From Planctomycetota bacterium (GTDB lineage Bacteria; Planctomycetota; Phycisphaerae; WQYP01): a stretch of DNA of 54,911 nucleotides. Below are positions 10,438 through 39,898 of this stretch, piece by piece; position 1 is the first letter of the stretch, and each line of letters starts with the position of its first letter. The position numbers and the translations under genes are program-made. The DNA lies in assembly GCA_021810145.1 (NCBI GenBank), contig JAJZJL010000012.1, positions 1 through 54,911 on the forward strand, written 5' to 3'. The notes below the pieces were generated by a model. That model made no database searches. It was not told the origin of the DNA and worked only from the letters and a program-made list of their open reading frames with translations.

Positions 10438-10463
10438 GGGGCCAATTAGCGTGGCCCCGTTTT
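10438..10463 (+). terminator. Candidate rho-independent terminator
   Basis: GGGGCCA (10438-10444) and TGGCCCC (10452-10458) form a perfect 7-bp stem with a 7-nt loop, followed by GTTTTC. It lies 25 bp after the small HTH gene. The T-run is short, so termination may be partial. Confidence 0.5.
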
Positions 10464-10497
10464 CACTATTTATACCCGAATCAAGGAGTGTTTTGTT

Positions 10498-10977: not shown

Positions 10978-10978
10978 C

Positions 10979-11536: not shown

Positions 11537-13468
11537 TCACATTGCATTGCCGGCAAACGCCAGCGAATCATCCAATTGTTCGTCCATGTAGGCAACGGAC
11601 ATGCGTTGCGTGGCGGCCAGACGCTGGGAACGGCTCTGCGCCCGGCCAATGAGAATTCCGGCTATCCAATGCGGAATCGTCGGATTTCTTGAGGCGACAC
11701 GTTTAGCCAATTTCACCAGGGTGGCAATGTGTGTGGCAAACACCTGATCTTCCAGTCCGGCAAAGACGATGTTATCTCCGGGATCTCCCTGCCGCCCCGC
11801 ACGGCCCGCAAGCTGGCGATCCACGCGCCCGGATTCATGAAGCTCTGTGGCGATCACATACAATCCGCTCGCCTGCCGGGCCTGCAAGTCCAGTCGAATA
11901 TCAGTTCCCCGGCCAGCCATATTGGTAGCCACGGTTATGGTGCCCGATTTGCCGGCTTCGGCGATGATTTGCGCTTCTTCCGCAACGCGCCGGGCATTGA
12001 GCACCCGATGCGGCAGGCCTAATGCTGTAAGACGTCTGGATAACTCTTCACTGGCATGTACGCTGACGGTCCCGGCCAGCACTGGCCGTCCGGCGTCATG
12101 GGCGAAGCGAATCTCCTCGACAATTGCATCCCACTTGTTTGATTGACTGTGGAACATCCGGATGCCGTTGTGTCGGCGGATGCACGGACGGTTTGTGGGA
12201 AGTCTCAGCATACCACGGCGGTAGACATGCCAGAGTTCCCCGCGTGCCTCGGCCAATGTGCCGGACATGCCGCTTAATCGCTGATAAAGCCTGAAAAACC
12301 GCTGAAAGCTGATTCGAGCCAGCGTTTCCTTCATGGGCTGAATCTCCAGTGATTCGCCGGCTTCCACCGCCTGGTGTAATCCGTCTCGCCAATGTCGATC
12401 AGGCATTAATCGGCCCGTGGATTCATCCACAATGACCACTTTATCATCCTGTATGACGTATTGTTTGTCCCGCAGGTAGAAATGCCGAGCCGTCAGGGTC
12501 TGGCAGACCAATTCTTCGCCGCGCCGCTGGGAGCGCCACAGACCCTCACGGCCACTACTGGAAGCCACAACTGCGTCGCGGCCACTTTCTGTAAGCTCCA
12601 CCGATTTAAATCGCGGTTGAAGGCGATAATCGCGGCCTAATGTTAAATGGCGCGCTACGTCAATGGCCTGCTCATAAGCTTGTGTTTGTTCGGGGTTGCC
12701 GGCATCACCGGAAATAATCAGCGGCGTAACGGCCTCATCAATAAGCACTGAATCCGCCTCATCCACAATGGCGGCGTATAAGCCACGTTGCACGCCATTG
12801 GATTTCTGCGCTGGTGAAAACAGTGGCCATCCGAGTCCCGACTTTGACTTTGGACGCTGGAGTTGGTCACGCAGGTAATCCGCGCACACTTCCTTATTGG
12901 TGGCATACGTGATGTCCATGGCATACGCGGCCCGGCGATCATCGGTAGACATTTCCTGCTGAACATACCCAACGGACAGGCCGGCGATGGCATATATTTT
13001 CTCGAATTCCTCCGCATCGCGCCGGGCGAGGTAATCATTAACGGTAATGACATGGCAGCCGCGTCGCCGCCACGCGTGCATAATGGCCGGAACGGTCGCT
13101 GTGATGGATTTACCCTCACCGGTGGCCATCTCGACCAGCAGGCCGTCATAAAGTGCCAGAGAGCCGGCAATCTGCACCGGAAACAACCGCATACCGGTTT
13201 CCCGGCGAATCACTTCACGAATGGCCGCCGCCGCCAGTAAGCGATCCTTTCGAGAATCACGTCCCAGATGAAACGGTATCGCCAATCGGGCCAGGCGACG
13301 TTTGAGGCGTCCATCGGATATTCCTTTGAACTTGCTTTCAAGTTGGCCGACGGCCTGAGCATTGCGCAAGTATATCTTACGATACGGTATGAGCCGTCGC
13401 AGACGGCCTATGGTACCGTGCCATGCCGCGTCCAAGCCACGCGGAATCTTTTCAACCGATTTTGGCAT
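11537..13468 (-). CDS. Short SecA-like translocase ATPase
   Basis: A 643-residue SecA homologue. Walker A is ATGEGKS (115-121), the DEAD box is VDEADSVLIDEA (about 236), and the helicase region contains NMAGRGTDI and GRAGRQGDPG. The preprotein cross-linking region lies between. Typical SecA is about 850-900 residues. Here the protein ends soon after the second motor domain, and the C-terminal linker and zinc-binding tail are missing. It is therefore an accessory SecA, not the housekeeping one. It is 11 bp downstream of the M50-fusion gene in the same unit and lies in the locus of the giant LEPR-XLL protein, so it probably powers export of that protein (inference). Confidence 0.88.
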   Translation of the reverse strand: MPKSVEKIPRGLDAAWHGTIGRLRRLIPYRKIYLRNAQAVGQLESKFKGISDGRLKRRLARLAIPFHLGRDSRKDRLLAAAAIREVIRRETGMRLFPVQIAGSLALYDGLLVEMATGEGKSITATVPAIMHAWRRRGCHVITVNDYLARRDAEEFEKIYAIAGLSVGYVQQEMSTDDRRAAYAMDITYATNKEVCADYLRDQLQRPKSKSGLGWPLFSPAQKSNGVQRGLYAAIVDEADSVLIDEAVTPLIISGDAGNPEQTQAYEQAIDVARHLTLGRDYRLQPRFKSVELTESGRDAVVASSSGREGLWRSQRRGEELVCQTLTARHFYLRDKQYVIQDDKVVIVDESTGRLMPDRHWRDGLHQAVEAGESLEIQPMKETLARISFQRFFRLYQRLSGMSGTLAEARGELWHVYRRGMLRLPTNRPCIRRHNGIRMFHSQSNKWDAIVEEIRFAHDAGRPVLAGTVSVHASEELSRRLTALGLPHRVLNARRVAEEAQIIAEAGKSGTITVATNMAGRGTDIRLDLQARQASGLYVIATELHESGRVDRQLAGRAGRQGDPGDNIVFAGLEDQVFATHIATLVKLAKRVASRNPTIPHWIAGILIGRAQSRSQRLAATQRMSVAYMDEQLDDSLAFAGNAM

Positions 13469-13479
13469 GATGGTTCACC

Positions 13480-15675: not shown

Positions 15676-15969
15676 AAGGTCTCACAGTCGTACGAAAACA
15701 AAACGTCATGTTTTTACCCGATCCTCGGCATTTATGACAACTATTGGATGGTTACAGCGAACGGTAAATCCAATTTGGCGGATCCAACGATCAGAGACTG
15801 TTCTGGCGTTCGCGATTCAAGTCCGCGGGAAATCGCATATTGCAAGATGGGAATATAAAAAAATATGCCACAAATGCGCCAAAGAGTTTACACATTGGAA
15901 TCCCGATGGTAGATTCCTCCGATCATTCGACGGTTGTATACGGTTCTGGCGCTTTGTTGAGACGGAAAA
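15676..15969. promoter_or_regulatory. Divergent promoter region of the export locus
   Basis: 294 bp separate the two transcription units. A plausible forward promoter is TTTACA at 15887-15892, a 17-bp spacer and TAGATT at 15910-15915, 54 bp before the adaptor ATG. An imperfect inverted repeat, AAAACGTCATGTTTT, lies at about 15700. No gene is supported here. Confidence 0.4.
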
Positions 15970-18341: not shown

Positions 18342-18342
18342 G

Positions 18343-20665: not shown

Positions 20666-23600
20666 ATGGTTCAGGCTAAAACTAAGGCTCGGAGAAATTC
20701 CATAACACGGGCGTTGGCGCGATTACGCTCGCCGCGTATTTTCATTCCGTGGCTTTCGCAGAATTTACGTCATTTGCGACCGGATGCCTTTATGGAAGCC
20801 ATCGCGGCCATGCGCGAAGTGCGCATGAGCCGACAACGATTGCGTCGTCCGGAGCGGCAGGGGCCGAGGGTCGAAATTCTTGAACCCAGGTTGCTTTTAT
20901 CCAGCGTCAGTTGGATCGCCCCCACTGGCGGCGATTGGGGTGTCGGGGCTAATTGGAGTACCGGTACGGTTCCCGGTAGCGGCGACACCGCGATTATTGC
21001 CAGTCTCAATCCCGGGGCGCAAGTTACTTACAATACCGGCAATTCAACCGTGGCGGCAGTTCAGGCTTCCAGCCCGTTGGAAATCACCGGCGGGACGTTG
21101 ACGGTTACGGGTTCCACGCAGATAACCGGCACGACTTTGATACTCGATGGCGGGACGCTGGCGGATACCACATTATCTACAGCCAGCGGCGGGCTAATCC
21201 AGACCTTAGCCGGTTCCACGACCACATTGGATGCCGGCACGCTGGGAGGCAATACCACCCTTACCGTCGCATCGGGTTCCACGCTCGACGTTGCCGATAA
21301 CCTGACCCTCGGCAGCGGCGCAACCCTCAATGTTGATGCGGGCGGAACGCTGAATTTTGTGGATGGTACAAGCAACTCCCAGACCATTTCCGGCAGCGGA
21401 GCTATTACGCTGGATGCCGCCAGCGGTTCCTATGCGGCGGGCCAGATCAACGCCAACGGTGTCAACTCCGGCTCCCAAGTCACCTTTGACAATGGCGTGA
21501 ATATCACCGGATTGGGAACCAGCACCGCGCCAAACAGCATTACTTCAGCCAACGGCAATACAATTGTTTTCGACGGCATTGTAACCGACGCAAGCATTTC
21601 CTCGGCCAGTGGGGGAGCACTTCAGGCGAATTCAGCAACCTTTCAGGGCACAACGCTTGCTGGTTCACTTAGCATCGCCAGTGGCACGGTGACGCTGGAG
21701 GATTATTATAATTATTCGATCGGCGGACCGGATGTTGCGGGTGTTAATGCGGGCACGGTTAGCATCGCATCGGGCGCAACACTGTACATGAGTAATGAGT
21801 ATTATAACCTCACATCCTCTTGGACCAACGCTTCCGGCACGATTGACATCGCCAGCGGCGGAATCTTGAAGCTTGGCGGTGACTTCACCCAGAGTGACTT
21901 GGGCGTGATCAGCAACGTCGGTGGAACAATTGATTTCAGTGGCACGCTGACGAATACGGGACAGACGCTTTCTGAGACACTGCTAAACTCTTGGAGCATG
22001 GGCGGAGGTGCCGTCATCGAGGGGACCGTTGGCATAAGCGGGCAGGTCATAACGCTGGCAGTCTCAGCGCCACAATACTCTGGGGAATCCAACCTGACGC
22101 TGGAAGGTGTAACCGTGGACGGGACGGTGAACATCAATAGCGGTACGGTGTCGCTGGAGGACTACTACAATTACTACAGCGGGGGATCGGATGTTGTAGG
22201 TGTCAACGACGGAACCATCAACATTGCTTCGGGTGCCACATTAAACCTACGTAACGACTATTACAACCTCACGTCATCCTGGACCAATGCCACCGGCACG
22301 ATTAACATCGCTGGCGGCGGCACTCTTAACCTTGGTGGCGATTTCACTCAGAGCGACTTGGGGACGATCAACAATAGCGGTGGAACCATTGATTTCAGCG
22401 GCGCATTGACAAATACCGGCGGCAATCTTTCCGCGGCGCTGCTGAACGGATGGACAATGGACTGGGGCGCGGTCATTGGTGGAAACGTCGGAGCAACCGG
22501 CGATACCATTATAATTTCCGGTAGTTCCGGCTTGTACTTGGAGGGTGCCACGCTTCAGGGTGCGGTAACCATCAATGGCGGCTATGTCTACCTTGAGGAT
22601 TATTATAATTATTTCACTGGTGGATCGGATGTTCAGGGCGTCAATGACGGAACATTCAACGTCGCCTCCGGCGCAGCGTTGTATTTGAGTAACCACTATT
22701 ATAATTCCACTTCTTCCTCTTGGACCAACGCTTCCGGCACGATTAACATCGCCAGCGGCGGTACACTTCATCTTGGCGGTTACTTTACACAAGGCGATCT
22801 GGGGACGATCAACAATAGCGGTGGAACCATTGATTTCAGCGGCACGCTGACCAACACCGGTCAGACCGTTTCAGTTGTGCTGCTGAATTCATGGACCATG
22901 GACTATGGTACCATCATCGGCGGGACGGTTGGTGCCAGCGGGCAGACGGTAAATGTTGCCAACAATTATTTGTATCTCAACGGCGCGACATTGGCGGCCA
23001 ACTTATCCGTCGCCTCCGGCGCGACGTTGTGGATTGATGGTGGTCTGACGATGCAGGCTGGAGCCACAGTAACCATTGCATCGGGCGGTAGTCTTTGGTT
23101 TGATGGTGGCGGAACGACAGGCCAAGCTATAAGTGGTTCCGGTCAAATCGACTTGGGGTCCGGTTCCACGGTCCACATTTATTATGGGGCAATCACCCTC
23201 GGCGCTGGGATCACTTTCGCCGGTGCCGGCAATATTGTAAATCAATATGACGGCCTGCTGATTAATCAGGGAACCATTGATGCCAATGTCGCTGGCCCGG
23301 CGCTGACCATCGCAGCACCATTCCAGAATGATGGAACGCTGACCACCGCGAACGGCGGCAACCTTGCGATTACCGGTGCCAGCTTCACACTGGATTCCGA
23401 CGGCACGCTGACGGTCAACACCGGCAGCGCGGTGACGCTGGGTTCCGGCACTTCGCCATGGATTAACAGTGGAACCATCAACATATCGGGCGGCACGCTG
23501 GATATTGGCGGCTTAGTCACTACAGCCGATCTGGGCGTGGCCAATTGGAATTACACCGCAGGACAAGTGGAACTTACTGGGACCATTGACAATACGGGAG

Positions 23601-26600: not shown

Positions 26601-29600
26601 CCATAACCAGCGACGATTGGTTCCAGCCCGGACTTTACAACGACCCCTCATCAATGGCGTTTAACAATGCAGGCACACTGAATATTGATATCCCGGAGAC
26701 GTATTTTGCAGCTGAATTTCTGCCGTCCGGCAGCGCCAATGTATACTTTGACAATACCGGAACGGTAAACGTCAACCAGGCAATTTTACAACTTGGGCAG
26801 CCGGGCGGCAATATCGGCCAGCCGGGCAATAGTTGGAGCAACACCGGCACCATCACCGTCGCCAGTGGCGGAACGCTTAATCTTGCCGGCAATTTTACGA
26901 CCACCGACATCGGAACGATTAATAGCAGCGGAACTATTGATTTCAGTGGGAAGCTGACCAATACAAGCAACACCCTTTCCGCGACGACATTGAACACATG
27001 GACAATGGACGGAGGTGACATCATCGGTGGGACAGTTGGCACCTCCGGGCAAACGGTTAATCTGACCGGTTACTCCGTGACGCTGGATGGTGTGGCACTT
27101 GATTCCAATCTGACCGTCGCCTCCGGCACGACGCTGAACATTGCCGATGGCTTGACGCTCGGCAGCGGGGTGACCATCACCGTGGACGCCGGAGCAGTTC
27201 TCAACTTCGTCGACGGCACGACCAACACGCAGACCATTGGCGGCAGCGGCAGCATCGTCCTCCAAGGTGCCAGTGGAAGTTATGCGCCAGCGCAAGTTGC
27301 CGTTGATGGTGCTGCCGCCGGATCATCAGTCACCTTCAACAATGGCGTGAGCATACAAGGACGTAGTGAAATAGCCGTGCTTGATGTCGCGGCCCACAAC
27401 ACCCTGATCTTCGATGACACCATAAGTCAACTAACCCTGAGCGTGGCCTCCGGCGGTTATCTGCAAACGGGCGGTCAGTCCACGATCGGAACACTGGACA
27501 CGGTAACGCTTGCTTCCAGTCCAACCCTTCTCGGCCCGTCCGATGTGGATGTCACGAACAGCTTGGGATTGCTTAACGGCGCGATGCTGACCGTTGATGC
27601 GGGCTCGACCGTGAATTTCGTAGACGGTTCGAGTAATTCACAAAGCGTGTATGGCATAGGCTCAATTACTTTAGGAGCCGCCAGCGGTTCCTACGCTGCC
27701 GGGCAGATCAACGTCGATGGGACTGTGGCTGGTTCTTCAGTGACATTTAATAATGGCAACAATATCACCGGCCCGGGTGGTGTCACCGTCGCATCCGGCA
27801 ACACAGTGATTTTCGATGACTCTGTAACCAACGCCCTTATTTTCGCCGCCAGCGGCGGAAATTTGCAAACCAACGGCACTTCATCCACTCCGGCAATCTT
27901 TGACAGCGTAACGCTGGGTACGAACAGCAACCTCAATGTCGCCTCTGGCGCAACTCTTGACATCGCCGACGGCCTGACGCTTGGCAGCGGCGCGTCGATC
28001 ACGGTGGATGCCGGGGCGAACCTCAACTTCATCGACGGCACCAGCAACATCCAAACCGTTTCCGGTAATGGCACCATCATGCTGGATGCCGCCATCGGTT
28101 CCTACGCCGCTGCACAACTCATCGCCAATGGCACCAGCCTAGAATCATCGGTCACCTTCGCCAACGGCGTGAATATCACCGGCGGCAACATTGCTGTCAG
28201 CACCGGGAATACGTTGAGCCTCGACAACTACGTTGCCAGCGCCGGTATTTCGGTGGCTGGCGGTGCCACGCTCGACCTGCCCGGTGGCTGGAGCGTTGCC
28301 AGTGACACGATCACCATCTACAGTGGCGGAACGATGAACCTCGGCGGTGTGGTATACGGCGATCAGGATATTGGCACGCCGGGAATTGCCAGGGCGGCTG
28401 TTTATTCACCAGGCTCGGGGAATTGGAGTGTTTCCGGAACTGGCAGCGGCATCGGTGGTACCAGCGATCAATTCAACTACCAAAGCCAGTCATGGACCGG
28501 CGATGGAACAATCATCGCGAACATCAGTTCAATGAGCAGCATCAATACCGGTGCCCAGGCTGGGGTGATGTTCAGCGGCTCCGCCGATCCGGGCGCGATG
28601 TTCGCCGGTGTATTTATTACCGGTGGTGGTGACGCCGAATTTCAGTGGCGAACCGCCGACGGTTCCACTGCTCAGACCGTTCAGATTGGATCAATCAGTG
28701 CCCCGCGATGGATTAAGCTGGTTCGCGCCGGTAACAGCTTCAGCGCATATTACTCCAGTAATGGCCTTAGCTGGACGCAGATTAGTTCATCCCAGACAGT
28801 GAGCATGGGCAGCACCGCCGTGGCGGGGATGGCAGCGGCGAGCGGCGACAATACCACTTCCAATTCAGCCATTTTCAACAATGTAGAGTTGTACAGCGCT
28901 ACGGAGATATGGAATGCGGCCACGATCAGCACAGCTACAGTGATCGCTTCAGGAACCCTCGTGTACGTTGAAAATGGACTGACATTCACAAATAATGCCG
29001 CGTTGACGCTTGATGCAGGCGCGCAGCTCGATTTTATTGACCCCACGGGAACTTTCAGCAGTCAGACGGTCGGTGACAGCGGCAGCAGCGGCAGCAGCGG
29101 CAGCAGTATTATCCTTGATGCCGCCTCTGGTGGTTATGCGGCCGGGCAAATAAATATTGACGGCACCACCAATAACTCTCAAGTCACGTTCCAGGTCAAT
29201 ATCACTGGCCAAGTACCCGCGGGTACCATTCCCGGTGCGATTACCGTCGCGACGGGCAATACTCTGGTTCTCGATGATACGACGGACGGTGTGACGATGA
29301 ACGCGTCCGGCGGTGTGGTCGATGTGGCCGGTGGAACAACAACAACGATCGACAACAATGCGGGGATTACTAGTTCCGGAACAGGGCAAATTCAATTGAC
29401 CGGCGGCCAGTTGTCCATTGATTCCAGCCAAACGGTTGGCGCTCTTAATATTACCGGCGGGAAACTGACCCTTGACGCCAAGTTAAGCGTCAATAGTCTG
29501 AATTTCAATAGTGGGGTGATCGAAAGCGGTGGCACGGGGAGTCTGTTGTCGCTGACCGGTACGGACAACTGGAATGGTGGCACGCTGGACGTGGCCACGA

Positions 29601-32600
29601 CGGTGACCGCCGGCGCGACACTGAATATAACGGCTTCCACCGGTTACCTATACTTGGGCGGCCTCGGCGGTGGTGTGACCCTTAGTACCAGTGGCGGCAG
29701 CACTGGTGGCGTGATTAATCTGACGAGTCCGACCTACAATGTGCTGATGTACAGCGGCGACGAGATCAACAACGCCGGAACCTTTGACATCACCGGCGGC
29801 GCGGGCTTCCAGTTGCAAAACACAGGTTCGGCAACATTCAACAATTCCGGCCAGTTGGAGAAGACAGCCGGCACAGGAACCGCTACTTTCAACAGCGGGG
29901 TGCTGCTGGACAACGTGGTGGACAGTACGCAAGCGGGGACCGTCACAGTGGACACCGGCACGTTGCAGATCGCTGGCGGCGGATACAACGCCAATACCGG
30001 TACCGGTAGCGACGCGGCGTTCACGGCGGACGGCGGGTACTTGCAGTTCAGCGGCGGAACGTTCACGCTCCATGCCGACACGACGATGAACAGCGTCAGC
30101 AGCAGCAACCTGCAGCAGATCGAGTTCGACGGTGCAACAATCACGGTTGACGCCGGTGACACCCTGAGTGTAAACGGCCTCAACTTCAGCAGCGGCGTAA
30201 TCAACGGATCCGGATTGGTATCGCTGACCGGTACAGACAACTGGAACGGCGGCACGCTGGACGTGGCCACGATGGTGACCGCCGGCGCGACACTGAATAT
30301 AACGGCTTCCACCGGTTACCTATACTTGGGCGGCCTCGGCGGTGGTGTGACCCTTAGTACCAGTGGCGGCAGCACTGGTGGCGTGATTAATCTGACGAGT
30401 CCGACCTACAATGTGCTGATGTACAGCGGCGACGAGATCAACAACGCCGGAACCTTTGACATCACCGGCGGCGCGGGCTTCCAGTTGCAAAACACAGGTT
30501 CGGCAACATTCAACAATTCCGGCCAGTTGGAGAAGACAGCCGGCACAGGAACCGCTACTTTCAACAGCGGGGTGCTGCTGGACAACGTGGTGGACAGTAC
30601 GCAAGCGGGGACCGTCACAGTGGACACCGGCACGTTGCAGATCGCTGGCGGCGGATACAACGCCAATACCGGTACCGGTAGCGACGCGGCGTTCACGGCG
30701 GACGGCGGGTACTTGCAGTTCAGCGGCGGAACGTTCACGCTCCATGCCGACACGACGATGAACAGCGTCAGCAGCAGCAACCTGCAGCAGATCGAGTTCG
30801 ACGGTGCAACAATCACGGTTGATGCCGGTGACACCCTGAGTGTCAAAAACCTCAACTTCAGCAGCGGTGCGCTCAACGGACCTGGATCGGTGTCGCTAAC
30901 CGGCACGAGCAACACCTGGAGTGGCGGGACCGATTATGCCGCATTGACAGTCAACGCCGGGGCTGTTCTGGACACCGCCGGAAACGTGACAGCCGGCGGC
31001 GCATTGAATAACAGCGGCGGCACGGTGGAGGCAACTACCGGTACGTTGCAGATTGCCGACGGCGGCGTGGACAGTGGGACATTCGGTGCGGCTGGAGGTG
31101 TCATCGATTTCAGTGGTGGTATCAGTACGCTGGACGCGGGGACCGCACTGCAAGCTTCGGGCACAAGTGCCATTGAGTTAACCGGAGGCACATTGACATT
31201 CAACGCGGCAATCATCGCCAACAACCTGACGATGACCGGAGGAACGCTAACCGGGAATGCCAGCGGCGCGTTGACACTGACAGACATCGGAAATTGGAGC
31301 GGGGGAACCATTTCGGTGCCAGTGATCGTGGACGCCGGTACCACCCTGAACATCGCCGGCAACGACACTCTCAGCTCCACGACACTCACCAATGACGGCG
31401 GCGCGATCAATTTAAGCGGCACGCTGAATAACAGCGGTTCAACACTTCTGGACACCTCGACTGCCGGTTCATGGAACGTCAATAATGAGACGGTTACCGG
31501 CGGAACGATCGACGGGAGTAACGGCCCGGTTGCTCTTTCCGGCTCCAGCCAAACCAGCCTGACCTTGAGTAATGTGACGTTGGCCGGGACGGTCAATATC
31601 GACGGCGGTATGAACGTCTATTTCCCCGGTTCAAACGGCTTGTACCTCCAGACGGGCGCGGTGCTGAATCAGGGGGTATCATCCCTTTACCTCTTCACTT
31701 CCAGCGGCGGAGCGGCACCGCTTGCTGTTCTACCCGGATCAAGCGGCGGCTTTACCCTGACCAATACCACGAGCGGTTTGCTCAGTGCCGCATCATATAG
31801 CGGCGGAACGGCAACGCTAACCGGCGGATTGCTCATTAGCGGAGATGGAATCATTGCCAGCGACTTGGGAAATATTGATAGCGCCGCCACGATCGACCTC
31901 AACGGTCTGGTCGTAGTTGAAGCGACCTCAAACCAATCTTCCCCACTTTTTAACAACATCGGCACAATCGAAGGGACGGGCCAATTTGATGTGGCGAACA
32001 ACGGTGTTGGAACCGCCGTCAACAGTGGCACGATCATAGGAAATGTTTCGGGACAAATGTTGGAAGTGCTGGCATCGACAATGTCCAGCACGGGATCGCT
32101 TGCGGCTTCCGGTGGGGGGTATCTCAACGCCGATATCCGAACACTCACCTTGCTATCCGGGGGCAGCGTTACCATTGGCAGCGCTAGCGCATTGGCTCTT
32201 GGCCAAGCCGGGGGAACTGTCACTAACGCCGGTGCCATCGCAAATGATGGCGGTTTACTGAACTTGGTGGATAACGGAAACTTGGCAACCCTGGACATCT
32301 CCAATTGGACGAACAACGGATACGGAACCACCACCGTCAGCGGAACGCTCAATGATTCCGGTCTCGGTTTCTCCGTCGCGGCCGGAACGACGGGACCGGT
32401 CACCATCGCCCCCAGCGCAGCGCTCAATATCGGAGGAAATCTGGCGATTGGAAACAGCGAGACTTTGACAATCGAGGCGGGCGGCATGTTGAGTTTCGAC
32501 AGCAGTCCCGGAATCAGCCAAGACGTCAGCGGTGCCGGAAGCCTTATCCTTAACGCTGGCGACGTGTACGCGATCGCCGGACAGGTGAACGCTACCGGCG

Positions 32601-35600
32601 CAGTCGGTTCTACCGTCACCTTCAGCAATGGAGTCAGTGTTTCCGGTGCGGGTTACATCAGCGCGAATCCAGGTAACACCATTATTTTTGATAATACGAT
32701 CTCAGGAGTTAAGCTCGGGTCGACCGGCGGCTATCTGCAAGTCGGCGGCACAAGTTCCAGCCCAACCGTCTTCAGCGGTGTGACGCTGGATAGCAACCTT
32801 ACGCTGAATACTAATTCGGTACTTGATGTTGAAAATGGCTTGGCCGAGGCGGCCGGCGTTGCCATCGCCCAGCAAACCGCTTCGCAGATGGATTTGCTCT
32901 CCGGGGCCGGTCTCACAAATAGCGCGATTCAGCCGTTGGCTTCCAGCAGCGGAACTGTAACCGCCCAAATCCTCGGTTTTACCGGAGCCAACTCGCAGCT
33001 GGCCGGTGGTGTAGCATTCGTGGATTCAACTAATTCCGGCGCGGCGATGGCGTTGGTGATGGTTTCCAATAGCGGTGATCTGACGTTCCAGTGGATTGCC
33101 TCAGATGGCGCAACCGAACAATCAGCCCCTGTGGTGACCGGTGTAACGCTGCCGGTGCAGGTGCGGCTGGTCCGCTGGGGCGACACGGTTTCCGCGTATT
33201 ACTCCTATTCCACCGGCGATTCCGGTTGGGCGCAGATCGGCACCAGCGAAAACGTCATGTTCAGCAATGCCACAATCCTCGCGGGCTTGACGATGTCCGA
33301 TCCCGCCGGCGCATCCACTGATGGCGTTGTGATCGGTGCCCAATCACTGAGTGTAACAATCCCGGCCAGTCTGCCCCAAATTTCCGGTTCGCTTACGCCA
33401 CCGGCTTTGGAAAACCAGCCGTATATGTTGAATCTATCAACCAATAATTTTTCCGCCATGACCGGTTGGAAGATTAACTGGGGCGATGGAACAACAGCCG
33501 ACACACTGTCCGGCAGCGTAACTTCCGATACCCATTTCTACCCCGATGGTACCGCCAATTACACCATCACCATCACCGCGCAAACGGCTTCCGGTTCTAT
33601 AGCCGCCGCACCCATTGTCGCGCAGGTTGTCGACGCGGTGCCACAACCGGTTATTTCCGGGACATCCACGGTATCGGAAGGCCAAGCCTACACGCTGGCT
33701 CTTTCTCCCACCACCGCTGATGGAGACAGTGTTACGAGTTGGAGCATTAACTGGGGTGATGGAACGCCCATCCAGAACATTACCGGATCGCCGGCCTCTA
33801 TAAACCACACCTTTGCCGCCGGAGTGCCGGAACCGACCATCACCGCCTTCGCCACCGATGACGACGGCACAGGCAGCGCCACGCAGGCTGTGGCGGTCAT
33901 CCCCGCCGGGGCAACGAATCTCGCCGTCACCGGCGTTACAGCTACCTCCGCCACGCTGACGTGGACGAACAACTCTTATGTCGCTGAAGCCATGATTATT
34001 GAGGATTCAACCGATGGCGGTGCCACATACGCGGCCGTTCTCTACGCATCGGGCAACGCGTCATCAGCAACCGTAACCAACCTGCTGCCCAATCAAACTT
34101 ATACCTTCCAGATCATCGCCGCCAACGGCTCCGCCGAATCCGCGGCGGCACCGTCCGACACCGCTTCGGCGACAACGCTGGTCGCGTCGCCGGCGAATTT
34201 CACCACTATTGCCGTCTCGGCAACTGAAATTGGTCTTTCCTGGACGGCTTCCGCCGGCGCTACCGGTTATACCGTTGAGCAGAGCACGGACGATATAACA
34301 TGGACCAGCCTTACCCCAACCGCGCTTGCGGCAACTGCAACCGGTTATAACGATACGTCCGTTACCGGCACCGGGCCTTATTATTACCAGGTTATCGCCA
34401 ACGGCCCCTCCAACAACAACTCCACCGCGTCCGCCGCCGGTCCCATTTACACTCTCGACGGATCGGCGTTGAATCCGCACGCCACCTTCGTCTCCGGCAG
34501 TGAAATCGATCTGGCGTGGACTGATCCATCCAACAGTACCTATGGCTTTAATATTCAGGATTCCACCAATGGCGGAACAAGCTGGTCGAATGTTACATCC
34601 ACACCGCTGACCCCGGGATTTACCAGTTTCGCATGGAACCCCACCTCACCCTTTACGCCCGGAACCACCTATGATCTTCGTGTCCAAATCCTCAATGGCG
34701 GCGGCGGCTACACCAATAGCGGCACCGTCGGCGTCACGATCCCCGCGATCCCCGCCTCGGTCACCGGTCTGACGGCGACCGCCGTATCGTCCACACAGAT
34801 TAATCTTTCTTGGAATGACACCACCAGTGATGAAACCGGCTTTGTGGTGCAACAGCAAAGCTTTAATGGCACTTGGGTTCCGTTGGCCGCACTCTCCGCT
34901 TCCACCACCAGTTATGATGACACCGGACTTTCCGCCGGTGAAAGCTACGGTTACCAGGTGGCTGCGGTAAATTCCAGTGGAAACTCCGGATTCACCGCGG
35001 TCTCCGCAAGCACACCCGCCAACGCCGCGCCCGCCGCGCCGACCAGTGTCGATGCCACACAAAGTTCGCCCACCGAGATCGACCTGAATTGGGTGGCCGG
35101 ATCAGGCGGCAATCCCGCGACAAGTTTTGTCATCCAGCGTGAAGATGTGACTTCCAGCGGCAGTTGGCAGACCATCCAAACCGTCAGCGCCGGCGCATAT
35201 TCCTATCAGGACACCGCCGTTGCCGCCGGAGATGTTTACCAATACCAGGTTGCCGCCGCCAATACCGCCGGCTCGTCCGCTTATGTCGCCGCAACGTTCT
35301 CCGATGGAACCACATCCAGTGCCGGCTATGTCAATCCCTCAATGCAGCCACCCCTGGCACCCACCGGTCTGGCGGTGATTGGTGCCACTGTTCAGGGAAT
35401 CGGATTGGTGTGGAGCGATCCGTCGGTATACAATGCGTCGCTGATTCTGAATTATGAAACGCCTACCGGCACCTACAACTCTGTCAGCAGTCTGCAGTCA
35501 GGCCAGGCGAGCTTTGAGTTCACCCCGCAGACGATCGGTTCGGGATCATATCTGCAACCGGGCACCTATCGGTTCCAACTCCAAGGCACGAATTCAAGCG

Positions 35601-38600
35601 GGAAGTCGGCTGATTCAAGCTGGATTTCCGCCACCGTCACCGCCCCGGCACCCACGGCACCCAACCTTGCGTTCAGCCCGAATAATGATCAGCAGTATAA
35701 GATCAACCTGCTTTCCGACGCCTCGGTGCCCCTTCCCAACGACGGCTCGGAAGCCAACGCGCAAATCTCTATAGCATCCTACAGCCAGCCGCAGCATGGA
35801 AAGCTGGCAAAAGGTTCCAGCAGCGGAACTTATACCTACACCGCCAGCAGTGGATTTTATGGAACCGACAGCTTCACATATACCGTTCAATACACGCCTC
35901 AAGGCGGGGCGGCGGTAACCAGTGAGCAAGGCACTGTGACGCTGCAAGTCGCCAACCAGATACCGGAGGCGGAAAGCAACGTACAGAACTTCCCGCAAAG
36001 CGGCGGGACGATTTCCGGGACGCTGGGGGCCTACGATCAGAACGGCAACCCGCTCACCTACAGGCTGCTGGCCCAGCCCGCCTTTGGAAGTGTCACTGTT
36101 GATCCAACGACCGGCGCTTACACGTACAGCTTCACCCCGCTGGCATCGGGGGGCAGCCTGCCGAATGCATCCTTCACCTTTGACGTTACCGACCATCTCG
36201 CCGGCACCAGCGCTTCCAATGTGCTGGAAACCAGTAACATTGCCAGCGTGAATTTCGTCGGCGGGCAACAGAAGAATGGGGACGGCGACGGCGATCCAAC
36301 CGATTCAAATGATATCGACGGAAGCGAGGGTACGACCTTCACCCCCAACGAATTCCCTGTAGCGCCCCCGGCAGTGGCACCGTCAGCCCCTTTGGCCCCA
36401 ACCTTTCCCGATACCTTCTCTGTTCAGCAAGGCACTACCCTCACCGTCGCAGCCTCCAACAGTCCGCTTACGCAACCGCCTGCTTATGAAATCAACGTCC
36501 CCGCGGGTCAAACCGCGCCCACGATCTCCTTCGGTCAAATCATTGACCAGACGCCTAAGCACGGCACGTTCACACCCAATTCCGATGGCAGCTTCACCTA
36601 TACGCCGACGGACAAGAATTTCGTCGGCACCGATTACGTCACCTACACCCTCAAAGATCCCAACGGCACCCAAAGCAACTACGCCACCATCTTCTTCAAC
36701 GTCACCAAGCCCACCGTCGATCTGCTTATGGACACCAACAACAACGGCCAAATCACCGCTGCCGATGAATCCGGCAAGGCCTCCGGAACCGGCAAGGTGA
36801 TCATCGCCGATACCTTGGATGTTAACGGCAACAACATCCCCGGCTACGCCGACGGTATCAGCACCATCGCCGCCGGCGCAGGCGATAGTCTGCCGGAAGG
36901 TACTTTTGCGCCGCTCCAGCTTTCGGCGCTGGGTATTGCTGATCCATCCAGTGCCTATGTTGAATTTAATTATTCCGCCGCTGATCCCGCCAGCGTCACC
37001 CAGACATCCCCCAGTTCCGGGAGCATTGATACTTATTCCCCCGGCTCCGGCGGATACCTGCGTATATGGAATGCCGATTCCACCACGCCGCGCAACTCGG
37101 CCAGCATTCTCTCCGGTGGCAATTTTATCCCTGATAATACGGCCATTCCGCTGTCGGATATCCTCAAGGGGTCCAGTTCACTGACCGATCTTTATGTCGA
37201 AGGCGTCAACCCCAGTGATCCGAACCCCGTGACCATCACGGTCAAGATTGATCCAACCGGGGATTTTGCCAGCGGTGATAATACGATTTCCGATAAGGTA
37301 AATGTAACTGTCGCCAGCCTGCAATTGGTCTATACCGATGTCACCGGAATCTCGCACGCCAACCCCACTAAGGCATTTACCACCAACATGGACCAGAACC
37401 GTATTGCGCCAAACTTGCAACCCGGCGGCATTGCCGCCGATTGGCAAAATGGTGTCGATGACGGCTCACTGCTGCTGGTGCGGGCGGTAGGCTCGCAGGC
37501 ACTGGAGAATCTGATCCACCAAGGCAACCTGACACTCGATTTCGGCCAACTCTTCCCGCATATTGGTACGGGTATTTATTCGTTGCAATCCGATGGCAGT
37601 AATGGAGAATTGTTGCCCTTGAGCACTTGGCAGTCCAATCTCACCGCTGATACAGCGCTGAAGGGCGTGCAGACCAACACCAACCCCGCCCAAGGCTCAA
37701 CCCGATGGGAAGGCACCGCAGCCGGAGGGGCGGCGCTGGACGTTCTGGGCACGCAGTTCTACGAGCCGCCGGCGGAATTTCTGCCGCAGGGCGAAAGCAG
37801 CAATGCCTTTTTCCGGCAAATCCATGTCGGTGTATCGCTGAACTATTCCAATACCACTCTGCCGCCTCTGTATGCCGGTGCGAAGCCCGGCGCGCTGATG
37901 CTCACACGCCCGCCGGTGGTGTTTGTGCATGGAATCAACAGTGATCCCTATTCCGCCTGGCAGGGGCCGGGTGGAATGGCGCAAACGCTGCAAGGCCAGA
38001 AATATATTATTACGCCCTTCTCATTTGCGGATCATTCCGGTGCCGCCAACGACTACGGATCCGGACCGCTGACCAGCGATTGGCAGTCTGTCCAGAACGC
38101 GGTGGAAGCCACGATCGAAGACTTCCGGTACGGGCTGGTGAATAACTCCATTTACAATCCCGATATTCCCTCGGGCAATCCGACCCTCGTCCCCACCGGC
38201 CTTGCCGAGGGGACGTTGATCGCGGTTCAGAAAGTGGATGTGGTAGCGCACAGCTATGGCGGGCTTTTGACGCGCTGGTACATGGAACAGGCCACGAACT
38301 CCAGCGGCGGCAAGCTGTTTGAGGATTTCCGCAATATTCGCAGCCTGGTTGAAATCGGCACGCCGAATTTGGGATCGCCGTTAGCGAATATGATTGACGC
38401 GATATATAGCAATCCGACAATTGGTAATGCACAAATCAACTCAGGACTGCTGGGCACGCTTGGAGGGCACACCGAGAAGAACGTCCTCACCTGGATGCAG
38501 AGCCAGGGCTACCTCGCGACAAGCCCGAACGGGGCCAATCCTTATCCATTCTTTGAAGACGCCGCTATTAACAGCCCGCTGTTGGCGCAGCTTAATGCGC

Positions 38601-39898
38601 TCGCCGCCGTGTTCAGTAATGGTGTCTCGTATGCGGCGGTATATGGGACACACACCGAATTACAAAAATTCGAGGGGCCTGTACCGTTTACTGAGTTGCC
38701 GATTTTCGGCGATATCCAGCCGCTAGGCCCCAACGGCGGTTCCTATTTTCCATGGATCCAGCAACTTGACGGCGCGAACAACGACTCTATCGTGCCGACC
38801 TATAGCGCCATGCTGCCGGACACAGCTTATGACTACGGTGTGAACATGGACCATATTAACCTTGAGTCTGACCCGCAAGTTGAAGCACAAGTTCTAGCCT
38901 GGTTGGATAACCCGAATTTGCCGCTCGGCAGCACACAGCGCCAGGACATCCAACCCAGCAACGGCACGCAGAATCAGGCCTTCGTGGTCTCAAACTCAGA
39001 CCAGAATGCCTACAACGGCGGTAAAATTGGGTCCAATGGCGAGGTCACTGGTGCCGGCCTGAATCCATCTGCCATCGTCGGCGTGCAGCTCGATGGAATT
39101 GATTACAACACGGCAACATGGAACCTTTCCGTGACAACCGGCCCGAATGCAGGTGCTGGCGTCAAAAAGCCAATTCTTACCGGCATGGCCACCAAGAGCC
39201 AGTTAGTCAATGGCTTGACCATTTCACTTGTGTCGCCTGAAAATGAACACGGCGGATATGTTGGCCCCCTGGATACACTGGACTCGGTAGCGGTAACCTA
39301 CGGTGAAGCAGGCGTGTTGGTGAACCCTACCGCGTGGGCCGCCGCCGGGCCAGGTGACTACGTGCCCTTTGAAATATCGGCACTGGAAATGGGGCGGTCG
39401 GTGGCCCCGGGCATCACCGGCCCATCCCTCAACGGTGTGCAGGCGGACTCCGCCACCCAGGCCGCTATGGTGGAGTACAGTCTGGGGGGCATTCTTTCGC
39501 CCGATACGCAAGTGAATCTGCCAACCTATACGCCGACCGCGCCGGTGGTGATCTCGGATAATCCCACCGGTCAGATTCAGCTTCAACTTAATGGCGCATT
39601 CCAAGTGACGGATGCAACTTCAGGCAGCAGTCCGACTTCATACAGTGTAAAAATTTACGATAGCAACAGTCATCTGCTATGGGAGGACGACGTTTCCGCC
39701 GCCGCGGAACCTCTCGGTGTCTGGAATGGATTGGCGTTAACGTACTCGCTGGCAGCGATATTGAATCATGATTCCAACGGTAACATAATTGGTGTAGATG
39801 GTTCTTATGCCGGCCCGCTGAACATTTTTCAAAATTTCTGGCAGGCTGGTGTCACCAGCGATTCCGGCTATAACTCCGGCACCGTGGAGGTGCAGTGA
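20666..39898 (+). CDS. Giant LEPR-XLL surface/secreted protein with lipase-like domain
   Basis: A 6,410-residue uninterrupted protein. The N-terminus is basic with no hydrophobic signal peptide and carries the planctomycete LEPR-XLL motif (LEPRLLLS, 72-79). Residues about 80-4230 are low-complexity beta-strand repeats rich in Gly, Thr, Ser and Asn, predicted beta-helix. They are interrupted by an L-type-lectin-like domain (nt about 23650-24200), a CBM-like jelly roll (about 24360-24830) and two concanavalin-like domains (about 28390-28910 and 32900-33360). Then follow two PKD-like domains (INWGDGT twice), about six FN3 domains (about 33.9-35.6 kb), cadherin/VCBS-like domains (35.65-36.7 kb), Asp-rich calcium-type loops, an alpha/beta hydrolase and a C-terminal module. 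Probably exported by the adjacent machinery (inference). Likely roles are adhesion, predation or lipid degradation. Confidence 0.9.
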   Translation: MVQAKTKARRNSITRALARLRSPRIFIPWLSQNLRHLRPDAFMEAIAAMREVRMSRQRLRRPERQGPRVEILEPRLLLSSVSWIAPTGGDWGVGANWSTGTVPGSGDTAIIASLNPGAQVTYNTGNSTVAAVQASSPLEITGGTLTVTGSTQITGTTLILDGGTLADTTLSTASGGLIQTLAGSTTTLDAGTLGGNTTLTVASGSTLDVADNLTLGSGATLNVDAGGTLNFVDGTSNSQTISGSGAITLDAASGSYAAGQINANGVNSGSQVTFDNGVNITGLGTSTAPNSITSANGNTIVFDGIVTDASISSASGGALQANSATFQGTTLAGSLSIASGTVTLEDYYNYSIGGPDVAGVNAGTVSIASGATLYMSNEYYNLTSSWTNASGTIDIASGGILKLGGDFTQSDLGVISNVGGTIDFSGTLTNTGQTLSETLLNSWSMGGGAVIEGTVGISGQVITLAVSAPQYSGESNLTLEGVTVDGTVNINSGTVSLEDYYNYYSGGSDVVGVNDGTINIASGATLNLRNDYYNLTSSWTNATGTINIAGGGTLNLGGDFTQSDLGTINNSGGTIDFSGALTNTGGNLSAALLNGWTMDWGAVIGGNVGATGDTIIISGSSGLYLEGATLQGAVTINGGYVYLEDYYNYFTGGSDVQGVNDGTFNVASGAALYLSNHYYNSTSSSWTNASGTINIASGGTLHLGGYFTQGDLGTINNSGGTIDFSGTLTNTGQTVSVVLLNSWTMDYGTIIGGTVGASGQTVNVANNYLYLNGATLAANLSVASGATLWIDGGLTMQAGATVTIASGGSLWFDGGGTTGQAISGSGQIDLGSGSTVHIYYGAITLGAGITFAGAGNIVNQYDGLLINQGTIDANVAGPALTIAAPFQNDGTLTTANGGNLAITGASFTLDSDGTLTVNTGSAVTLGSGTSPWINSGTINISGGTLDIGGLVTTADLGVANWNYTAGQVELTGTIDNTGEPLTLNGVTSLIPGGLELTNGQQWEAGSAFDNTPINIASNFTSNFSFQLTNANADGFTFTIQGQGPQSLGRGEGDLGYGGIENSIAVKFDLYQNANTGDPSNNSTGLFLNGNQPFGGTSLNSADINLHSGDVINVQVSYTASSNSLVVTETDTVTNTSLTQTYSVNIANYVGPVGWAGFTAGSGFLTATQQILSWSINGSAVNLANTANTSTDVLNLSPTTTGSLLLNGGTIQGGAISATGGVGLEVVPTAPAPIPLADSGFETPVLASGAYQREPSGTGWNFPYYYSGISANGSGYTSGNSNAPQGNQVAFIDYSTQISQSINFATAGTYSLNLLAAQRGGANLNAQTLQVQIDGQAVYTFVPQGTNYQQYTTPAFNVSAGAHTITIVGLDNAGGDNTAFIDSVAINPAIATLDGVALDSNLTIESGATLNIADGLTMGSGAAVTVDAGAVLNFIDGTSNIQTVSGSGAIVLDAATGSYAAGQINANGVNAGSLVTFGGGVSISGLGAAGSPNNIHAASGNTAIFAGDLANVAISASSGGYLIAAQPWQSTYAFDAVTVASNLTIQAGDELDISDGMTLVNNATIFANGAYRTIHFVNGTSNTQTLSGTGNIQFYTSGTVYASGMGVWNASSVVSVGSGITISGAGYIAGNVGATLINYGTIEAPNINGHGLAFGETTFENYGTIAVELNSTLDVGVTNIVNEIGGTISVAAGGELDLNTNFAPWAGSWSNSGTITVDSGGLLDLGGNFTTAGIGTINSSGTIDVSGKLNNASSTLSAGTLGSWIMAGGTIAGGTIGSSGTTVNLAGSSVTFDATTLDSNVTVSAGTTLSIADGLTLGSGATITVDAGGTLNFVDGTSNAQTVSGSGTITLAAASGSLAAGQLNANGANSGTSVTVGAGVSITGTGIVNVASGNTLALEDIVNGATITAASGSDVQLYNMTLENGAMTIDSGATLTLENNDQYLINATLTNYGIVNDVSGWWVYFEDGSTVNNAVGGVFTITSDDWFQPGLYNDPSSMAFNNAGTLNIDIPETYFAAEFLPSGSANVYFDNTGTVNVNQAILQLGQPGGNIGQPGNSWSNTGTITVASGGTLNLAGNFTTTDIGTINSSGTIDFSGKLTNTSNTLSATTLNTWTMDGGDIIGGTVGTSGQTVNLTGYSVTLDGVALDSNLTVASGTTLNIADGLTLGSGVTITVDAGAVLNFVDGTTNTQTIGGSGSIVLQGASGSYAPAQVAVDGAAAGSSVTFNNGVSIQGRSEIAVLDVAAHNTLIFDDTISQLTLSVASGGYLQTGGQSTIGTLDTVTLASSPTLLGPSDVDVTNSLGLLNGAMLTVDAGSTVNFVDGSSNSQSVYGIGSITLGAASGSYAAGQINVDGTVAGSSVTFNNGNNITGPGGVTVASGNTVIFDDSVTNALIFAASGGNLQTNGTSSTPAIFDSVTLGTNSNLNVASGATLDIADGLTLGSGASITVDAGANLNFIDGTSNIQTVSGNGTIMLDAAIGSYAAAQLIANGTSLESSVTFANGVNITGGNIAVSTGNTLSLDNYVASAGISVAGGATLDLPGGWSVASDTITIYSGGTMNLGGVVYGDQDIGTPGIARAAVYSPGSGNWSVSGTGSGIGGTSDQFNYQSQSWTGDGTIIANISSMSSINTGAQAGVMFSGSADPGAMFAGVFITGGGDAEFQWRTADGSTAQTVQIGSISAPRWIKLVRAGNSFSAYYSSNGLSWTQISSSQTVSMGSTAVAGMAAASGDNTTSNSAIFNNVELYSATEIWNAATISTATVIASGTLVYVENGLTFTNNAALTLDAGAQLDFIDPTGTFSSQTVGDSGSSGSSGSSIILDAASGGYAAGQINIDGTTNNSQVTFQVNITGQVPAGTIPGAITVATGNTLVLDDTTDGVTMNASGGVVDVAGGTTTTIDNNAGITSSGTGQIQLTGGQLSIDSSQTVGALNITGGKLTLDAKLSVNSLNFNSGVIESGGTGSLLSLTGTDNWNGGTLDVATTVTAGATLNITASTGYLYLGGLGGGVTLSTSGGSTGGVINLTSPTYNVLMYSGDEINNAGTFDITGGAGFQLQNTGSATFNNSGQLEKTAGTGTATFNSGVLLDNVVDSTQAGTVTVDTGTLQIAGGGYNANTGTGSDAAFTADGGYLQFSGGTFTLHADTTMNSVSSSNLQQIEFDGATITVDAGDTLSVNGLNFSSGVINGSGLVSLTGTDNWNGGTLDVATMVTAGATLNITASTGYLYLGGLGGGVTLSTSGGSTGGVINLTSPTYNVLMYSGDEINNAGTFDITGGAGFQLQNTGSATFNNSGQLEKTAGTGTATFNSGVLLDNVVDSTQAGTVTVDTGTLQIAGGGYNANTGTGSDAAFTADGGYLQFSGGTFTLHADTTMNSVSSSNLQQIEFDGATITVDAGDTLSVKNLNFSSGALNGPGSVSLTGTSNTWSGGTDYAALTVNAGAVLDTAGNVTAGGALNNSGGTVEATTGTLQIADGGVDSGTFGAAGGVIDFSGGISTLDAGTALQASGTSAIELTGGTLTFNAAIIANNLTMTGGTLTGNASGALTLTDIGNWSGGTISVPVIVDAGTTLNIAGNDTLSSTTLTNDGGAINLSGTLNNSGSTLLDTSTAGSWNVNNETVTGGTIDGSNGPVALSGSSQTSLTLSNVTLAGTVNIDGGMNVYFPGSNGLYLQTGAVLNQGVSSLYLFTSSGGAAPLAVLPGSSGGFTLTNTTSGLLSAASYSGGTATLTGGLLISGDGIIASDLGNIDSAATIDLNGLVVVEATSNQSSPLFNNIGTIEGTGQFDVANNGVGTAVNSGTIIGNVSGQMLEVLASTMSSTGSLAASGGGYLNADIRTLTLLSGGSVTIGSASALALGQAGGTVTNAGAIANDGGLLNLVDNGNLATLDISNWTNNGYGTTTVSGTLNDSGLGFSVAAGTTGPVTIAPSAALNIGGNLAIGNSETLTIEAGGMLSFDSSPGISQDVSGAGSLILNAGDVYAIAGQVNATGAVGSTVTFSNGVSVSGAGYISANPGNTIIFDNTISGVKLGSTGGYLQVGGTSSSPTVFSGVTLDSNLTLNTNSVLDVENGLAEAAGVAIAQQTASQMDLLSGAGLTNSAIQPLASSSGTVTAQILGFTGANSQLAGGVAFVDSTNSGAAMALVMVSNSGDLTFQWIASDGATEQSAPVVTGVTLPVQVRLVRWGDTVSAYYSYSTGDSGWAQIGTSENVMFSNATILAGLTMSDPAGASTDGVVIGAQSLSVTIPASLPQISGSLTPPALENQPYMLNLSTNNFSAMTGWKINWGDGTTADTLSGSVTSDTHFYPDGTANYTITITAQTASGSIAAAPIVAQVVDAVPQPVISGTSTVSEGQAYTLALSPTTADGDSVTSWSINWGDGTPIQNITGSPASINHTFAAGVPEPTITAFATDDDGTGSATQAVAVIPAGATNLAVTGVTATSATLTWTNNSYVAEAMIIEDSTDGGATYAAVLYASGNASSATVTNLLPNQTYTFQIIAANGSAESAAAPSDTASATTLVASPANFTTIAVSATEIGLSWTASAGATGYTVEQSTDDITWTSLTPTALAATATGYNDTSVTGTGPYYYQVIANGPSNNNSTASAAGPIYTLDGSALNPHATFVSGSEIDLAWTDPSNSTYGFNIQDSTNGGTSWSNVTSTPLTPGFTSFAWNPTSPFTPGTTYDLRVQILNGGGGYTNSGTVGVTIPAIPASVTGLTATAVSSTQINLSWNDTTSDETGFVVQQQSFNGTWVPLAALSASTTSYDDTGLSAGESYGYQVAAVNSSGNSGFTAVSASTPANAAPAAPTSVDATQSSPTEIDLNWVAGSGGNPATSFVIQREDVTSSGSWQTIQTVSAGAYSYQDTAVAAGDVYQYQVAAANTAGSSAYVAATFSDGTTSSAGYVNPSMQPPLAPTGLAVIGATVQGIGLVWSDPSVYNASLILNYETPTGTYNSVSSLQSGQASFEFTPQTIGSGSYLQPGTYRFQLQGTNSSGKSADSSWISATVTAPAPTAPNLAFSPNNDQQYKINLLSDASVPLPNDGSEANAQISIASYSQPQHGKLAKGSSSGTYTYTASSGFYGTDSFTYTVQYTPQGGAAVTSEQGTVTLQVANQIPEAESNVQNFPQSGGTISGTLGAYDQNGNPLTYRLLAQPAFGSVTVDPTTGAYTYSFTPLASGGSLPNASFTFDVTDHLAGTSASNVLETSNIASVNFVGGQQKNGDGDGDPTDSNDIDGSEGTTFTPNEFPVAPPAVAPSAPLAPTFPDTFSVQQGTTLTVAASNSPLTQPPAYEINVPAGQTAPTISFGQIIDQTPKHGTFTPNSDGSFTYTPTDKNFVGTDYVTYTLKDPNGTQSNYATIFFNVTKPTVDLLMDTNNNGQITAADESGKASGTGKVIIADTLDVNGNNIPGYADGISTIAAGAGDSLPEGTFAPLQLSALGIADPSSAYVEFNYSAADPASVTQTSPSSGSIDTYSPGSGGYLRIWNADSTTPRNSASILSGGNFIPDNTAIPLSDILKGSSSLTDLYVEGVNPSDPNPVTITVKIDPTGDFASGDNTISDKVNVTVASLQLVYTDVTGISHANPTKAFTTNMDQNRIAPNLQPGGIAADWQNGVDDGSLLLVRAVGSQALENLIHQGNLTLDFGQLFPHIGTGIYSLQSDGSNGELLPLSTWQSNLTADTALKGVQTNTNPAQGSTRWEGTAAGGAALDVLGTQFYEPPAEFLPQGESSNAFFRQIHVGVSLNYSNTTLPPLYAGAKPGALMLTRPPVVFVHGINSDPYSAWQGPGGMAQTLQGQKYIITPFSFADHSGAANDYGSGPLTSDWQSVQNAVEATIEDFRYGLVNNSIYNPDIPSGNPTLVPTGLAEGTLIAVQKVDVVAHSYGGLLTRWYMEQATNSSGGKLFEDFRNIRSLVEIGTPNLGSPLANMIDAIYSNPTIGNAQINSGLLGTLGGHTEKNVLTWMQSQGYLATSPNGANPYPFFEDAAINSPLLAQLNALAAVFSNGVSYAAVYGTHTELQKFEGPVPFTELPIFGDIQPLGPNGGSYFPWIQQLDGANNDSIVPTYSAMLPDTAYDYGVNMDHINLESDPQVEAQVLAWLDNPNLPLGSTQRQDIQPSNGTQNQAFVVSNSDQNAYNGGKIGSNGEVTGAGLNPSAIVGVQLDGIDYNTATWNLSVTTGPNAGAGVKKPILTGMATKSQLVNGLTISLVSPENEHGGYVGPLDTLDSVAVTYGEAGVLVNPTAWAAAGPGDYVPFEISALEMGRSVAPGITGPSLNGVQADSATQAAMVEYSLGGILSPDTQVNLPTYTPTAPVVISDNPTGQIQLQLNGAFQVTDATSGSSPTSYSVKIYDSNSHLLWEDDVSAAAEPLGVWNGLALTYSLAAILNHDSNGNIIGVDGSYAGPLNIFQNFWQAGVTSDSGYNSGTVEVQ
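21690..22990 (+). repeat. Three tandem degenerate repeats within the giant gene
   Basis: Each unit of about 440-460 bp opens with a Tyr-rich segment (EDYYNY at about 21698, 22156 and 22594). It continues through the shared landmarks YYN-SWTNASGTI, GGDFTQSDLG and GGTIDFSG-LTNTG. Divergence between copies shows old tandem duplication. Confidence 0.8.
29549..30869 (+). repeat. Near-identical 672-bp (224-codon) tandem duplication
   Basis: Positions 29549-30197 recur at 30221-30869 with an offset of 672 bp. From about 29605 to 30150 I find no difference; a few substitutions occur only near the edges (for example ACG to ATG in the start region, and GTAAACGGC to GTCAAAAAC near the end). It is far more similar than any other repeat in the gene, so it is a recent in-frame duplication or gene conversion. 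An assembly artefact is possible but less likely because both edges differ. Confidence 0.9.
37909..38900 (+). other. Alpha/beta-hydrolase (lipase-like) domain of the giant protein
   Basis: Residues about 5749-6078. The oxyanion segment is VVFVHGINSDP (His5755). The nucleophile elbow is VAHSYGGLL with Ser5863. The acid is Asp6040 (GANNDSIVP) and the base His6063 (NMDHINLE), in the correct order. EIGTPNLGSPLA after the elbow is typical of triacylglycerol lipases and PGAP1-like hydrolases. The substrate is probably an acylglycerol or phospholipid. Confidence 0.82.
38903..39898 (+). other. C-terminal module of the giant protein (parent of the orphan cassettes)
   Basis: The module begins at LDNPNLPLGSTQ (residue 6080). 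Landmarks are GLNPSAIVGVQLD, DYN, GDYVPFEISALEMGR, NLPTYTPTAP, LNGAFQ and IFQNFWQ. It is beta-rich and not recognised as a known family. Detached copies lie downstream at 40386, 41394, 42946/46042 and 46535, with only the entry segment at 47131. Confidence 0.75.

Follow-up and report, generated by a model that had tools for sequence, protein, structure and literature searches.

By which route do some of the largest bacterial proteins leave the cell? Giant genes, presumably for surface proteins, abound in planctomycetes and other bacteria (PMC5177795), and no account of how such proteins exit the cell was found in our literature search. The question is raised by a locus of a Planctomycetota bacterium, contained in a stretch of 54,911 nucleotides (contig JAJZJL010000012.1, here called the window), in which the gene for a 6,410-residue LEPR-XLL protein stands beside genes for a short SecA-like ATPase, an M50 metalloprotease fusion, two further periplasmic adaptors and a TolC-family channel. 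The reading preferred here, to which we assign a probability of about 0.72, is that LEPR-XLL proteins are exported by a type-I-like pathway without an ABC transporter, encoded by this gene set and driven by SecA together with the M50 protein, the adaptors and TolC. Some of the largest bacterial proteins probably leave the cell by way of this gene set. The reading is carried by the gene content of the locus and its conservation, by the physical and genome-wide association with LEPR-XLL genes, by intact active-site motifs and by the lack of a Sec-type signal in the giants.

A conserved gene set without a pump

The open reading frames and their Pfam domain matches (Table 1) agree with the gene content given in a preliminary description made from the sequence alone. 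Its statement that no ABC or RND pump is co-encoded also holds, as no such gene was found by Pfam among the 29 window ORFs and the giant. The locus has an island-like setting, with flanks at 6918-11479 and 43200-52106.

Table 1. Features of the locus and its flanks in the window.
Feature	Position	Strand	Evidence or remark
tRNA-Arg	6918-6991		Flank of locus
Integrase	7111-8385		Same flank, after tRNA-Arg
S24/HTH repressor-like gene	9313-9978		
DUF2840-like and S26 peptidase genes	10498-11479		Adjoin export locus
Short SecA-like ATPase, 643 aa	11537-13468	-	Pfam; PDB alignment; motifs
Fusion of PqqD-like domain, M50 intramembrane metalloprotease and periplasmic adaptor, 731 aa	13480-15675	-	
HlyD/RND-type periplasmic adaptor, 305 aa	15970-16887	+	HlyD_3, HlyD_D23; RND_mfp above cut-off
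GAF-HlyD-family adaptor, 485 aa	16884-18341	+	HlyD_D23/HlyD_3 (Pfam); model shows adaptor fold
TolC-family outer-membrane channel, lipobox-like LPAC, 630 aa	18343-20235	+	OEP E 6e-23 (Pfam)
LEPR-XLL giant protein, 6,410 aa, probable substrate	20666-39898	+	
LEPR motif of giant with preceding Arg-rich stretch, PERQGPRVEILEPRLLLSS; probable export signal	20846-20902	+	Residues about 61-79
tRNA-Cys (ARAGORN), probably a false call	37378-37456	-	Within giant gene
IS66, resolvase and rve transposase genes	within 43200-52106		Far side of locus

The same gene order recurs across many phyla. Among 54 loci with enough flank, the M50 gene is accompanied by SecA in 51, by GAF-HlyD in 51, by HlyD in 45 and by TolC in 16, and only three ABC-like genes, recognised by sequence motif only, occur in 1,313 kb of 80 loci. 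In three loci (L297, L298 and L291) M50 and adaptor genes stand with an LEPR giant, and neither a short SecA nor an ABC gene was found in these stretches; they possibly represent a SecA-less variant of the pathway. SecA is not universal at the locus, a point on which the earlier suggestion of a SecA motor is not supported as worded.

The giants and their N-terminal tag

The motif LEPRLLLS occupies residues 72-79 of the window giant. As in the LEPR-XLL domain (NCBIfam LEPR-8K, NF012209), an LExRxLLS-type motif thus lies near the N-terminus of a very large protein; the window giant scores 13.5 bits, under the 17-bit cut-off, while a paralogue on contig C175 passes it with 19.2 bits. Unlike in NF012209, the variants LEQR, LEDR and LENR are also found near the same export system. 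The conserved segment of LEPR proteins consists of a basic N-terminus followed by [FLIV]E-x-LEPR-x-LLS-[AG]-D, at a median of about 40 residues from the first ATG. A chance motif was rejected, as seven permuted motifs gave 0-1 hits near the M50 locus against eight for LEPR, the latter (8 of 80 loci) being a lower bound because the ORF picker missed giants starting off the locus.

The window giant comprises a repetitive N-terminal part, legume-lectin-like, PKD, fn3 and Big_9/cadherin-like domains and an alpha/beta-hydrolase-like end. No hydrophobic N-terminal stretch is present in it (maximum 12-residue mean hydropathy 1.04), nor was a hydrophobic Sec-type signal found in 48 LEPR proteins by a hydropathy proxy. 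Cysteine is about 12-fold rarer in LEPR proteins than in other ORFs of the M50 loci, a comparison set that includes some shadow frames (0.73 and 9.06 per 1000 residues, respectively), and the 6,410 residues of the window giant contain none. Type I substrates are usually cysteine-poor. Cysteine poverty and the absence of a hydrophobic signal fit an export of LEPR proteins in one step and in the unfolded state, of which both traits would be expected. LEPR open frames of 19,427 (G602:C115), 18,012 (G314:C10) and 17,824 (G407:C4) residues were also seen, and are among the largest observed.

Compared with type I secretion and tripartite pumps (HlyB-HlyD-TolC, MacAB-TolC), the locus shares a TolC-family channel, adaptors of HlyD/MacA fold and large cysteine-poor substrates without a Sec signal, but it has a short SecA and an M50 protein where the ABC or RND transporter would stand, and its giants bear a conserved N-terminal tag. 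An alternative explanation is that LEPR giants are ordinary type I substrates, for which an unlinked ABC exporter borrows the adaptors and TolC while SecA and M50 only process or regulate. ABC genes are indeed found everywhere in genomes, and RTX-type repeats, a trait of ABC-exported type I substrates, occur in some LEPR giants, such as that of L297 and a Vibrio protein of ~8000 residues that bears both LEPR-XLL and RTX domains (PMC10868602). However, the window giant has no RTX-like repeat, the conserved LEPR tag is N-terminal whereas RTX signals are C-terminal, ABC genes are lacking at the window locus and nearly so in the 80 loci, and the locus keeps M50 and SecA much more regularly than it keeps the TolC channel. 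An unlinked ABC exporter is therefore considered unlikely.

A short SecA

The 643-aa protein matches SecA_DEAD (E 9e-91), SecA_PP_bind (8e-27) and P-loop_SecA (3e-50), and gave no Pfam match to SecA_SW. In the alignment with solved structures it covers residues 22-551 of B. subtilis-type SecA. Judged from sequence, NBD1, the preprotein cross-linking domain and NBD2 are retained, and the helical wing and the two-helix finger are missing. The ATPase motifs (TGEGK at residue 116, DEAD at 236 and GRGTD at 519) are invariant among 13 relatives.

The solved proteins nearest to it are SecA and SecA2 proteins, and like the accessory SecA2 systems the locus provides a second SecA with ATPase domains and a preprotein cross-linking domain. 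The short SecA may thus be thought to work with SecYEG, as SecA2 does in Gram-positive bacteria, the adaptors and TolC acting at a later stage or for something else; a published phylogeny, which places this clade near actinobacterial SecA2 (PMC4452313), points the same way. However, the protein is of about 640 aa, apparently lacks the wing and finger that are used with SecYEG, is linked to adaptors and TolC and does not reach the curated SecA2 cut-offs (NCBIfam). Nor is a secY seen at the locus, none of the 48 LEPR proteins has a hydrophobic signal, and export in two steps would leave the constant link with an adaptor-fused M50 unexplained, all of which makes a SecYEG partnership decidedly unlikely. 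The predicted lack of the two-helix finger that canonical SecA uses is also counted against the pathway proposed here.

The M50 fusion and the adaptors

In the window copy of the 731-aa fusion, the matches to Peptidase_M50 and PqqD are both weak and below the Pfam cut-off; among 32 aligned members, Peptidase_M50 was matched in 31 and PqqD in 18. The HExxH motif and the second zinc-ligand Asp (HESGH at 214-218 and NPFLRYDG at 317-324 in the window copy) are invariant in all 32 sequences, drawn from many phyla, and the M50 region is modelled as helical. Because the active site is invariant throughout, the M50 part is probably an active protease rather than a mere pore. The C-terminal third has the fold of MexA/AcrA/MacA adaptors according to a structure model searched with Foldseek. 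A GAF domain was detected in 26 of 29 members of the family of the 485-aa adaptor and not in the window copy. The Foldseek lists of the fusion and GAF-HlyD models were full of adaptors and so bear on the fold of the adaptor parts, not on that of PqqD or GAF.

The closest curated family to the fusion is the daptide-maturation metalloprotease NF041824 (NCBIfam, E 2e-40), with which the PqqD-like part and the M50 HExxH region align. The gene set might accordingly mature or anchor LEPR proteins rather than export them, the M50 protein cleaving the tag and the adaptors moving a small product, as could be expected of an invariant active site and of a relative in which short precursors are the substrates of a PqqD-like plus M50 protein. 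The score, however, is 138.9 bits against a curated cut-off of 300, the window fusion adds a periplasmic adaptor, and its partner is a giant protein where that of the daptide enzyme is a short peptide. Processing alone would hardly call for a SecA-type motor and three adaptors, and the giants have no other visible export signal; a role restricted to maturation is very unlikely.

Association with LEPR-XLL proteins

In order to relate the gene set to LEPR-XLL genes at the genome level, 294 Planctomycetota genomes were sampled, with LEPR defined by NF012209 at E<=0.01 and relatives of the M50 fusion at E<=1e-5. The fusion is present in 44 of 46 LEPR genomes and in 102 of the 294 overall (Fisher p 2e-21; this and the p values below overstate independence, as the sampled genomes are related). 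All 25 LEPR genomes of the window's class have it, and their SecA matches reach E<=2e-139 in all but one (G042, 6e-106). Forty M50-positive genomes that gave no NF012209 hit were compared with 40 M50-negative ones by means of a broader motif profile, which found the motif in 21 and 2 of them, respectively (p 2e-6); the result is supportive rather than independent because the profile was partly built from M50 neighbourhoods. Outside the phylum, LEPR was found in 44 of 49 genomes chosen only for their M50 locus against 66 of 299 background genomes, a sample from one proteobacterial phylum, and at E<=1e-3 in 42 of 49 against 36 of 299 (p 3e-25). In the Shimia family, 25 of 200 genomes have LEPR, 21 the system M50 and 20 both (p 7e-22), at an M50 cut-off (E<=1e-70) set after the scores were seen; at the preset E<=1e-10, LEPR occurs in 22 of 31 M50-positive genomes (p 4e-19).

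The link is thus found again both within families and in phyla far apart. Gene set and LEPR-XLL genes are conserved together in many phyla, so that the proposal of the preliminary description withstands the chief check on it, which a lack of such conservation would have failed. Pure phylogenetic inertia was rejected as an explanation, as the Phycisphaerae families f2 and f7 mostly have both features or neither, and it is also disfavoured by the pairing of system and giant copy numbers in the Shimia family. Three LEPR genomes (G087, G228 and G461) yielded no full-length M50 fusion even with a 32-sequence profile, only partial matches mostly in the adaptor region; these genomes, like the SecA-less M50/LEPR loci, count against the pathway.

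Physical linkage is evident as well. In the Shimia family the giant adjoins the operon in 19 of 23 same-contig pairs, the giant ORF and M50 being some 1-4 kb apart, a space taken up mostly by GAF-HlyD, and four genomes hold two systems, each with a giant of its own on the same contig. In the reverse test, 20 proteobacterial giants were picked by motif and contig only. For 15 of them a strong system hit lies within about 11 kb, for 10 two or more such hits, and three of those without a system hit run to the contig end. In planctomycetes, nine LEPR hits lie within 20 kb of the system where a simple estimate gives roughly two (p 3e-4). Adjacency is weaker here because most LEPR genes are dispersed, with up to 18 per genome. 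A pairing of one system with one giant is typical of the Shimia family. A system dedicated to one giant, as initially proposed, is not what planctomycetes have, since a genome there may hold up to 18 scattered LEPR genes for one or two systems; in these bacteria the pathway would serve many substrates and not one protein.

A second system copy is present in the genome of the window, with M50 86% and SecA 91% identical to the window copy. It is split over contigs C94 and C175, each half bearing an LEPR-type giant (FEVLEQRLYLSG, LEQLEPRIMLSN), and all three LEPR-type proteins found in the genome adjoin its two system copies. Chance is excluded because this copy, 86-91% identical, is also flanked by LEPR-type giants, and with it and the many independent genomes the idea of a single odd genome was rejected.

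Some further features of the second copy were observed. The C-terminal end of the second giant (L012:2-3712) has a dockerin-like repeat, GDVDGDGVVNSNDIN..., and a 437-aa protein with repeated YxxxGGxYRxF-like segments lies between the giant and the adaptors (L012:4886-6199), for which no counterpart was recognised in the window. The copy (L011:8356-11776, C94) also adjoins a transposase-like ORF and a TrbB-like conjugation ATPase, as read by eye. Both system copies may be cargo of integrative elements. That the genes merely travel together on mobile elements, with no functional link, is nevertheless barely credible: the window copy does lie behind an integrase and tRNA-Arg, accompanied by IS66 and recombinase genes, and the second copy beside conjugation-like genes, but many phyla show the link again in an unchanged gene order, the Shimia family has one giant per system, and even distant LEPR genes covary with the system.

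The proposed pathway and its relation to earlier work

In the SecA-driven pathway preferred here, the unfolded giant would be recognised in the cytoplasm by its Arg-rich N-terminus and the [FLIV]E-x-LEPR-x-LLS-[AG]-D motif, most likely through the PqqD-like domain of the M50 fusion, which is of the RRE type; such domains bind leader peptides. The short SecA would supply ATP-driven pushing, and the M50 membrane domain, as a putative pore, would receive and gate the giant and possibly clip its N-terminus. The conduit through the periplasm and the outer membrane would be formed by three adaptors (the M50-fused, the GAF-family and the free one) and TolC. More tentatively, and at somewhat less than even odds, these parts may constitute a separate one-step secretion class of LEPR-XLL signal, RRE-like reader, minimal SecA, M50-adaptor and TolC, in which M50 is both the gate and the protease that removes the signal.

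A locus of this type, with a secondary SecA_DEAD protein, Peptidase_M50, HlyD and GAF-HlyD, was described by Kamneva, Poudel and Ward in 2015, who also proposed that SecA plus M50 stand in place of an ABC transporter (PMC4452313). The idea of the preliminary description that SecA and M50 replace the pump is consistent with the lack of a co-encoded pump, but it is not new. Both loci have a SecA_DEAD protein without SecA_SW, M50, HlyD, GAF-HlyD and sometimes OEP, with no ABC, and the present gene set occurs in the same phyla and more; a Methylorubrum locus (L169) has the same gene set as the window. What differs is that LEPR-XLL giants are here tied to the gene set, and that the M50 protein is seen to have, besides its invariant active site, a PqqD-like domain and a complete adaptor. 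The main text of the 2015 paper names no substrate or signal, and the words 'LEPR' and 'giant' are absent from it (PMC4452313). No earlier report linking LEPR-XLL to the SecA/M50 locus was found in the open-access papers searched, of which only two mention LEPR-XLL. The substrate link, in which LEPR-XLL giants and their N-terminal tag are tied to a known locus type, appears to be new.

The orphan system of 2015 hereby gains likely substrates, and with one N-terminal motif tied to one conserved gene set, the export of giant proteins can be tested directly. If the pathway is real, SecA would be shown to work outside its usual SecYEG pathway, and a separate secretion class, if it exists, would serve many very large surface proteins of several phyla.
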